Shown one piece after another: positions 6,873 through 63,111 of a DNA stretch of 64,000 nucleotides. Below the pieces are notes generated by a model, which was not told the DNA's origin, ran no database searches, and saw only the letters and a list, made by a program, of their open reading frames with translations. Both the position numbers and the translations under genes were made by a program. This DNA is from Candidatus Poribacteria bacterium (GTDB lineage: Bacteria > Poribacteria > WGA-4E > PCPOR2b): positions 1-64,000 of the forward strand of contig JAJEAL010000091.1 in assembly GCA_022822785.1 (NCBI GenBank). The letters run 5' to 3'. The first letter of the stretch is position 1; the number at the start of each line of letters is the position of its first letter.

Positions 6873-7667
6873 ATGGGAAAGGTGATCGTCGTTACGTCTG
6901 GTAAGGGCGGGGTTGGTAAAAGTACTTCCACGGCGAATCTTGGAACGGCCCTTGCTGTGCTGGGCAAGAAGGTCGTTGTCGTTGACGCGGATGTCGGATT
7001 GAGAAATCTGGACGTGATTATGGGGTTGGAGAGTCGCGTTGTGTACACATCAATGGATGTCCTCGAAGGCAACTGTGAACTGGATAAGGCATTGGTCAAA
7101 GATCGGCGGACGAAAGATCTCTACCTGCTCGCAGCCTCACAGAAGAACAACAAGAGCGATATTCAACCGGAACAGATGAAGAAGCTCTGCCTCGAATTGA
7201 AGGAGGCGCACGACTACGTTCTGGTCGATTCGCCTGCTGGAATCGAGCAGGGGTTCCAAAATGCGGCAGCGGGTGCTGATGAGGCGCTTATCATAACAAC
7301 GCCAGAGGTCGCGGCGGTCAGAGATGCGGATCGAATCATCGGTTTGTTGCAGAACATGTCTATTAATGATCTTCACCTTGTCATCAATCGACTCTCACCG
7401 GAGATGGTTAAGACGGGGGATATGATGGAGCCGACGGATGTCATTGACATTCTGTCAATCGATCTGATCGGTGTCATCCCAGAGGATAGAGAAATTGTTA
7501 TTTCAACGAACCGAGGCATGCCGTCAACCTATAATCATAAGTCTGATGCCGGGCAAGCCTATAAACGTATCGCGCAACGACTTGAAGGGGAAGATGTTCC
7601 CATTCCAGAGTTTAAGTCGGTAGGTTTGCTCGGGACCTGGTTTGGCAAACTGTTCACGTGGGGATAA
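6873..7667 (+). CDS. minD: septum site-determining protein MinD
   Basis: Membrane-cycling ParA/MinD ATPase that recruits MinC. The deviant Walker A is GKGGVGKST (signature Lys11 and Lys16), followed by VVDADVGLRNLD and VLVDSPAG. The C-terminal residues VGLLGTWFGKLF form the expected amphipathic membrane-targeting helix. 264 residues is standard. A GAAGGAAGGACA ribosome site lies before the ATG. minE follows after 13 bp, so the two are cotranscribed. Confidence 0.97.
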   Translation: MGKVIVVTSGKGGVGKSTSTANLGTALAVLGKKVVVVDADVGLRNLDVIMGLESRVVYTSMDVLEGNCELDKALVKDRRTKDLYLLAASQKNNKSDIQPEQMKKLCLELKEAHDYVLVDSPAGIEQGFQNAAAGADEALIITTPEVAAVRDADRIIGLLQNMSINDLHLVINRLSPEMVKTGDMMEPTDVIDILSIDLIGVIPEDREIVISTNRGMPSTYNHKSDAGQAYKRIAQRLEGEDVPIPEFKSVGLLGTWFGKLFTWG

Positions 7668-59888: not shown

Positions 59889-61556
<1,668 letters not shown>

Positions 61557-61847
61557 TTAGCTAATTTTTGCCAAGATGTCATCTTCGCGCAGAATCAGCA
61601 ACTCTTCATTTTCATAGGTTACTTCGGTGCCGGAGTATTTACCAAACAGAATTTTGTCTCCAGCTGCGACATCAATCGCTTGCCGTCCGCCATTGTCGAG
61701 CAACCGGCCCTCTCCGACAGCGATAACTTCGCCTTCTTGGGGTTTCTCTTTGGCAGTGTCAGGGATAATAATCCCGCCACTGGTTGTCTGCTCGTCTTCT
61801 TCCGTGCGCCGGATTAAAATCCGATCTCCTAACGGTATAAGTGGCAT
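61557..61847 (-). CDS. groES: co-chaperonin GroES
   Basis: 10-kDa lid of GroEL, 96 residues. [20 protein letters not shown] is the family start including the mobile loop ([10 protein letters not shown]), and [17 protein letters not shown] and DDILAKIS end it. An AAAAGGAGATTAAGAT site precedes the ATG. The promoter region lacks a CIRCE element but has a sigma-54-type promoter (61909-61923). Confidence 0.98.
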
Positions 61848-61908
61848 ATCTTAATCTCCTTTTCGTTGAAGTTGAAACTGATAATGAAACGGTACGGCTA
61901 TTCATTAT

Positions 61909-61923
61909 GCAATAGATATGCCA
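61909..61923 (-). promoter_or_regulatory. sigma-54 (-24/-12) promoter for groESL
   Basis: Minus-strand TGGCATATCTATTGC (61923-61909) has GG and GC with exactly 10 bases between, matching TGGCAC-N5-TTGC in most positions, with AT following. The transcript would start near 61897, 50 bases before groES. A large inverted repeat lies 57-105 bp upstream of the -24 box. Confidence 0.7.
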
Positions 61924-61979
61924 ACTTGCTATTACTGGATCCTGCGCCTGTCGATGACATATTGGCACACTCAAATCGG

Positions 61980-62028
61980 GACAAAATGTCACCATGACTG
62001 TTGTTTTTCGTGATGGTGACATTTTGTC
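61980..62028. promoter_or_regulatory. tandem palindromic upstream activating element of groESL
   Basis: GACAAAATGTCACCAT (61980-61995) and ATGGTGACATTTTGTC (62013-62028) are perfect inverted repeats separated by 17 bases. Each arm is itself a near-palindrome (GACA-AAA-TGTC, or TGACATTTTGTCA). The element lies 83-131 bases upstream of the predicted sigma-54 transcript start, the usual place for enhancer-binding protein sites. The 16-bp stem could also form a hairpin, but it is not near a gene end. Confidence 0.65.
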
Positions 62029-62124
62029 ATTATCTGATTGAGACGCTTCTCATATCAAGGGATCGTGCGAAGAAACTGTACGGGCAGGCAACCCCCCGCC
62101 CGCTTCCGAAAAAACGCTGCTGCT

Positions 62125-63111
62125 CTATTTTACGGAACATGAAACCGCTGCACCTGTCCGATCTGACTCATAGGCAGCTGCAAGAATAGCATTGGTGCAC
62201 AGTCCATCCAGTCCCGTGGCAATCGGTTCTTCCTCTTGAGTTACGCACCGTGCGAAATGCTCGAATTGGCTCTGGTAGAGATCTTCAAACGGAGAGTCGA
62301 TGGTTTGCGATTCGCCGTTAGCGGCGAGCTTAATTTTCCAACCGTCATCATTATGGACCCACACCCATCCATTGGTGCCGTATATCTCAATAACAAGGTC
62401 ACACCCCGCAGCAGCGAAACTGGTGTCAACGAGCCCTTGAGCCCCGTTCTCAAAACGCATCATGATTGTGCCGGTTTCTTCAACATCATAGCCGTGGATA
62501 GCCGTGTTGCAGAATGCGCTGACCTGATCCACCTCCCCGACGATGTAACGTAAAAGATCCACCCCGTGTGCGCCGAGGTCCATCAAGCATCCACCGCCGC
62601 CCTGATCCGGGTTACCGCGCCATGCCCCCGGCGGGATGGGAAACGGTTTAAGGAACGGCATCCGTGCATGGACAATTCGTCCCAAGCGTCCCTCCTCTAT
62701 CCACGTTTTTATTTTTTGAAAACAGGAGTGGAAACGAAATAGGAAACAGATCTGTAGATGTACGCCGTTCGCTTCGCAGGCATCAATCATCCGTTGGCAC
62801 TCTACCGTGTTCAACCCCATCGGTTTATCACAGAGGACATGGTATCCCTGTTCGGCGGCCTCAACCACCTGTTCACAATGCAGATACACAGGTGTCGAAA
62901 CGTAGATTGCATCTAACGCTGGATCTGACAGGAGATCTTTCACCGTTGTATAGTACGTTCGCGCCTGATGTTCCGTCGCTAGCCGTTGGGCACGCTCTTC
63001 GTCTCTAGAAAACAGTGCACCAAGCGTTGCGTCCTTCGCCTTGTTTATCGCCGGGATGGCTCGCCGTTGTGCAACACTTCCTGCGCCAAGCACGCCCCAT
63101 TTTAATGTCAT
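62125..63111 (-). CDS. Gfo/Idh/MocA-family oxidoreductase 4
   Basis: A 328-residue member with Rossmann LKWGVLGAGSVAQRRAI at the start, the catalytic DKP in VLCDKPMGLNT, and a His in MDLGAHGVDLLRY typical of the second catalytic position. A GTGAGGAGAGAAAC ribosome site precedes the ATG at 63111. Its end is near the groESL upstream element but the two appear unrelated in function. Substrate unknown. Confidence 0.9.
   Translation of the reverse strand: MTLKWGVLGAGSVAQRRAIPAINKAKDATLGALFSRDEERAQRLATEHQARTYYTTVKDLLSDPALDAIYVSTPVYLHCEQVVEAAEQGYHVLCDKPMGLNTVECQRMIDACEANGVHLQICFLFRFHSCFQKIKTWIEEGRLGRIVHARMPFLKPFPIPPGAWRGNPDQGGGGCLMDLGAHGVDLLRYIVGEVDQVSAFCNTAIHGYDVEETGTIMMRFENGAQGLVDTSFAAAGCDLVIEIYGTNGWVWVHNDDGWKIKLAANGESQTIDSPFEDLYQSQFEHFARCVTQEEEPIATGLDGLCTNAILAAAYESDRTGAAVSCSVK

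Follow-up and report, generated by a model that had tools for sequence, protein, structure and literature searches.

A predicted sigma-54 promoter with an upstream palindrome array at groESL of Candidatus Poribacteria, and a candidate activator for a protein-quality-control regulon

The groESL locus and its upstream region

The window analysed here, a stretch of 64,000 nucleotides (64 kb), comes from a Candidatus Poribacteria genome of 5.6 Mb in 147 contigs and carries the only groESL copy found in that genome. The operon lies on the minus strand and consists of groES (61557..61847; 96 aa; an open reading frame matching Pfam Cpn10, PF00166, with 118 bits) followed by groEL as the second gene (59889..61523; 544 aa; matching Pfam Cpn60_TCP1 and over the cut-off for the NCBIfam GroEL equivalog). 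The 5' neighbour of groES is a gene on the same strand coding for a Gfo/Idh/MocA oxidoreductase, which ends at 62125. Upstream of groES the minus strand contains the GG-N10-GC element TGGCATATCTATTGCA (61923-61908), an exact match to the sigma-54 -24/-12 consensus TGGCAYNNNNNTTGCW and the only such match in the window. Counting from the -12 GC, whose C lies at 61909, transcription is predicted to begin at 61897, leaving a leader of about 50 nt before the groES ATG.

Three copies of a 13-bp palindrome, TGNCA-N3-TGNCA, precede this box: a proximal copy at 61955..61967 (minus-strand TGCCAATATGTCA, centre about -64), a middle copy with one mismatch at 61979..61991 (minus-strand TGACATTTTGTCC, centre about -88) and a distal copy at 62017..62029 (minus-strand TGACAAAATGTCA, centre about -126). 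All three fall in the range from about -60 to -150 where upstream activator sites are expected, and their spacing is conserved in relatives. The original prediction had instead singled out a perfect 16-bp inverted repeat, GACAAAATGTCACCAT / ATGGTGACATTTTGTC, as a tandem palindromic enhancer. The repeat is indeed there: its arms (61980..61995 and 62013..62028) enclose a 17-base spacer, it lies 57-105 bp upstream of the box, and its placement at -83 to -131 agrees with a start at 61897. However, the relatives conserve separate 13-bp palindromes rather than the extended repeat, which we therefore rejected as the functional unit; judged by this comparison, it is a local accident. The palindromes also number three and not two, the one at 61955-61967 having been missed. 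A further perfect palindrome at 7445-7457 of the window lies inside a minD-like coding sequence with no box nearby and was taken as a chance occurrence. The groES palindrome does not match the NifA enhancer TGT-N10-ACA, as TGNCA-N3-TGNCA yields TGT-N7-ACA at most.

Conservation of the groES element

We compared the readable groES upstream regions of 68 genomes belonging to the same order; all genomes used in this study are metagenome-assembled, and the genome-wide scans are pattern searches. The exact -24/-12 box is found in 63 of the 68 upstreams, against a chance rate of 0.0004 per shuffled 500 bp, and with one mismatch in another (G006), being missing only in G080 and in the three genomes of the family labelled f4. 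Neither the antisense strand nor the reversed pattern gave a single exact match in the in-order groES upstreams. Between one and three exact palindromes are present in 62 of the 68, where 0.006 per upstream would be expected. Relative to the box their centres lie at about -114, -74 and -49 in family f3 and at about -102, -63 and -38 in family f1, with fixed mutual distances of about 25 and 40 bp. Relative to f3, the whole f1 array is thus shifted 11 bp towards the box; such a displacement by one helical turn is as expected for a protein that is obliged to face the polymerase. The comparison of orthologous upstream regions, which had been proposed as a check on the promoter, finds the GG-N10-GC box retained, and the palindromes as well.

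Beyond the order, a groES copy preceded by a sigma-54 box, either exact or degenerate, is present both in further orders of the class and in the two genomes that represent other classes. Palindromes accompany the box in several genomes outside the order, and several of these out-of-order genomes carry a second groES copy under CIRCE. Taken together, these observations suggest that the sigma-54 arrangement at groES looks old. In a comparison set of 29 groES upstreams taken from other phyla, sigma-54 boxes were lacking throughout, and 28 of the sequences carried a CIRCE-like site.

Sigma factors and alternative readings of the upstream region

The source genome encodes RpoN (Sigma54_DBD, 202 bits, over the Pfam cut-off; G000:C22) along with about 20 full sigma-54 activators (bEBPs), so that both checks suggested for the genome at large came out in favour of the promoter. 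Together with the conserved box and palindromes, these genes support the original reading of groESL as sigma-54 dependent. A second, weaker Sigma54_DBD match (L040, G000:C21:37214-37609; 95 bits, in a 472-aa frame) is possibly a divergent second rpoN.

Two other readings of the region concern the promoter itself. One holds that the palindromes are repressor operators, or a hairpin or terminator between the oxidoreductase gene and groES, with transcription starting from a sigma-70 promoter. The 16-bp repeat could form a stem, and the f4 family has comparable palindromes ahead of a sigma-70-like promoter. Nevertheless, relatives keep single palindromes and lose the extended stem, the spacing to the -24 box is fixed save for the one-turn shift between families, and the same pairing of box and palindrome recurs at dnaK, clpB and lon (see below); we consider this reading very improbable. 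Still less credit can be given to control of groESL by HrcA and CIRCE with the sigma-54 box being incidental. The source genome does possess hrcA, with a perfect CIRCE ahead of an hrcA-grpE-dnaK1-dnaJ operon. Nonetheless, a search for TTAGCACTC-N9-GAGTGCTAA with up to 5 mismatches found no CIRCE in the window, in line with the original prediction, and none was seen at groES in the in-order relatives checked. Furthermore, HrcA was detected among 30 genomes tested in families f1 and f2 only, and hrcA is absent from the tested f3 and f4 genomes while f3 keeps the sigma-54 element. CIRCE control of groESL is therefore contradicted by the sequence, and we rejected it. Control by RpoH was likewise rejected, as no protein in six genomes exceeded the family cut-off (best score in the source genome 157 bits against a cut-off of 323).

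One locus combines both types of element: in L258 (G069:C1:40000-41000) the box TGGCACGCCGATTGCT, located about -93 to -66 relative to groES, is nested in the CIRCE-like sequence TTGGCACTCTGGCACGCCGATTGCTAA (2 mismatches). This suggests that HrcA could block a sigma-54 promoter, and the locus is a possible intermediate between the two types of control.

A regulon of protein-quality-control genes

To describe the distribution of the element we used a composite pattern, in which one palindrome is joined to a box 28-58 bp away. This pattern matched 104 times, with 44 of the 59 genomes represented, whereas its reversed control did not match at all. In the cases read, the genes behind these matches were mostly groESL, dnaK, clpB and lon, with clpB and lon being identified by Pfam; unrelated genes stand behind some of the elements. 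The presence of -24/-12 boxes at groESL, dnaK, clpB and lon corresponds, by promoters as well as by gene set, to a chaperone regulon of the Flavobacterium kind.

Within the source genome there are 22 exact boxes (9 with the reversed control), and palindromes accompany those of groESL, clpB (L320) and one gene for a secreted protein (L334). Most of the boxes, including that of glnA, are without a palindrome, so the palindrome marks a sub-regulon. The element additionally precedes a receiver-only gene of the source genome (L204, G000:C40, promoter match 678-757), which is followed by a second dnaK in relatives. Given that the same element occurs at dnaK and clpB, and also at lon in some members of the order, it is predicted to govern a regulon for protein quality control (of the heat-shock type), and the content of this regulon argues for induction by proteotoxic stress.

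Several details of these loci deserve mention in their own right. In f1 the second dnaK is separated from the sigma-54 element by the gene of a protein that consists of a receiver alone and has a canonical phospho-Asp; f3 is without this gene, and its dnaK lies directly behind the element. At L334 (G000:C100:29917-29932) the exact box has the upstream palindromes TGACAAAATGTCA and TGACATACTGTCA, and the secreted-protein gene is cut by the contig end. Composite elements are also found upstream of an HD-domain Cas10-like gene (L191, G028:C231) and an ABC permease-like gene (L192, G048:C1:1349724).

The candidate activator D and its fate in f4

Activators were collected from five genomes and grouped by reciprocal matching. 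The member of group D in the source genome (G000:C63:59836-61260) is a 475-aa protein with a pseudo-receiver, a sigma-54 AAA+ domain and a Fis-type HTH. It is over the cut-offs for Pfam PF00158 and PF02954 and shows the Walker A and B motifs, GAFTGA loop and HTH_8 domain of a bEBP, and these motifs are intact in the source genome and outside f4. Scored against the NCBIfam equivalogs AtoC, NtrC, NtrX, ZraR, NifA and LuxO, it exceeds none of the cut-offs (best AtoC, 375 bits against 714). The phospho-acceptor Asp is absent from the receiver, the aligned position in orthologues being mostly P and also Q, S, E or A; hence D probably responds to something other than phosphorylation. D is present in all but four in-order genomes. 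It was not found in G018, G045 and G078, although their groES keeps the element; gaps in the assemblies may account for these cases. A palindrome was looked for at the D gene without success, and a search for the activator by autoregulation was abandoned, as no exact palindrome lies close upstream of any activator gene read.

The f4 genomes depart from this picture at both the promoter and the protein. Their groES lacks the -24/-12 box and has TTGACA-N17-TAGAAT in two genomes and a weaker sigma-70-like site otherwise, while the palindromes are altered to sites of the TAACA-N3-TGTTA type. Among 25 genomes compared, D has lost the GAFTGA loop and the Walker B Asp in all 3 from f4. The f4 D proteins of G011 and G014 are under purifying selection rather than decaying (dN/dS about 0.11; 0.05 for the receiver and 0.02 for the HTH), the least kept part being the AAA+ domain, which is the best kept elsewhere. 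Of the remaining activators in G011, all but one have retained a loop of GAFTGA type, and the counterpart of the exception in the source genome also lacks GAFTGA. The loss of the groES box in f4, combined with the loss of GAFTGA and the Walker B Asp from a D that is still under purifying selection, makes D the best candidate for the regulator, and on balance we favour it as the activator of the groESL element. The f4 pattern is suggestive of an activator turned sigma-54-independent regulator of the same operon, and is only suggestive because it comes from one clade and represents one or two evolutionary events.

An alternative that retains the same sigma-54 promoter and regulon assigns them to a different activator, namely a conserved bEBP under histidine-kinase control, either that of group A or a different one. 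The group A protein (G000:C94:59727-61115) has a canonical receiver, AAA+ domain and Fis-type HTH, is reciprocal-best in f1, f2 and f3, and has no member in the three genomes of f4, a family without the groES box, so that co-loss alone does not single out D. Co-occurrence alone was likewise not decisive between A and D, both having a few gaps. Against group A, it is missing in G006, G013 and G032, whose groES keeps the element, and its neighbours in f1, f2 and f3 include pilin-like and prepilin peptidase genes, which suggests a role in pilus function or secretion. It also leaves the loss of the sigma-54 activation parts in f4 D unexplained. We regard an activator of this kind as unlikely, while giving it appreciably more weight than the readings that dispense with the sigma-54 promoter. 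Groups B and C were rejected as activators, since they occur in all families including f4 with GAFTGA intact and no link to the element was found.

Group B (L215, L208, L227, L239, L247) has EutN/CcmL-like microcompartment shell genes as neighbours, along with a membrane kinase-like gene, and likely regulates the shell genes. Group E (L217, compared with L207 and L226) differs between families: its f1 and f2 members possess a receiver and lie next to a kinase-like gene, while in f3 the receiver is lost and the kinase is gone from the neighbourhood.

Proposed mechanism and implications

The explanation we prefer, at a probability of roughly 0.8 for the whole, is that the groESL region represents a sigma-54 promoter with a three-site enhancer array, and that this element serves as the switch of a protein-quality-control regulon, with D as the likeliest activator. 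The box, the array, their conservation, regulon membership, the presence of rpoN and bEBPs and the change in f4 were all read from the sequences themselves. An AAA+ enhancer-binding protein would bind the three TGNCA-N3-TGNCA sites, loop to the closed RpoN-polymerase at -24/-12 and spend ATP to open this complex at the groESL promoter. Through the same element, dnaK and clpB would be controlled as well, as would lon in part of the order. If the activator is D, which lacks a phospho-acceptor, it would sense a signal such as free chaperone or misfolded protein. A more far-reaching version, to which we give slightly less than even odds, is that the pseudo-receiver protein D reads the folding state without phosphorylation and replaces HrcA in most of the order, and that in f4 it has been rewired to a sigma-70 groESL promoter, keeping its DNA-binding domain together with changed palindromes.

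Textbook accounts of heat-shock control usually offer two alternatives, sigma-32 and HrcA/CIRCE. Poribacteria, an uncultured phylum known for sponge symbionts, are predicted to use an ATP-driven sigma-54 switch on groESL, dnaK, clpB and lon, whereas most other bacteria use a HrcA repressor site. The defined binding site and the named candidate regulator are open to in vitro testing, and the sigma-70-shifted f4 family offers a natural experiment in the joint loss of an enhancer-dependent activator and its promoter.

Comparison with known systems

Sigma-54 chaperone promoters are already known as a kind, for instance in Flavobacterium; what is new here is the phylum, the binding site, the candidate activator and the reversal in f4. 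A literature search found no paper on sigma-54 control of chaperones in Poribacteria. Sigma-54 promoters were mapped at groESL, lon, dnaK, grpE-dnaJ, htpG and clpB of Flavobacterium psychrophilum (PMC9723704), and sigma-54 promoters of chaperone and protease genes were predicted in Planctomycetota and Bacteroidota (PMC12316311); in the accessible text, neither paper names a binding site or an activator that would serve these promoters. The likeness lies in -24/-12 promoters before chaperone and protease genes, the poribacterial set being groESL, dnaK, clpB and lon. Poribacteria differ from Flavobacterium in being another phylum and in that a shared enhancer palindrome, a candidate activator and a sigma-70-shifted family have been identified; on the other hand, starts are mapped in Flavobacterium, whereas the poribacterial start is predicted from sequence.

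The groESL3 operon of Bradyrhizobium is NifA-dependent. It is listed as RpoN-dependent (PMC4842269) and thus also has an RpoN promoter for a groESL operon. However, it is one of several groESL copies and is tied to nitrogen fixation, whereas the poribacterial operon is the sole groESL found and belongs to a chaperone regulon. As the poribacterial palindrome does not fit TGT-N10-ACA, the parallel with NifA is one of analogy only. The Chlamydia hrcA-grpE-dnaK operon, with its tandem sigma-66 and sigma-54 promoters (PMC8762339), similarly combines a sigma-54 promoter at a chaperone operon with HrcA control. Chlamydia groESL is controlled by HrcA/CIRCE, in contrast to the poribacterial groESL studied here, which has a sigma-54 box and no CIRCE. 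A parallel to D is offered by HsfA-lonD of Myxococcus xanthus (Ueki and Inouye 2002, cited in PMC9548883): HsfA is a two-component regulator that activates a heat-shock protease gene as part of a phosphorelay, whereas D is without a phospho-acceptor.
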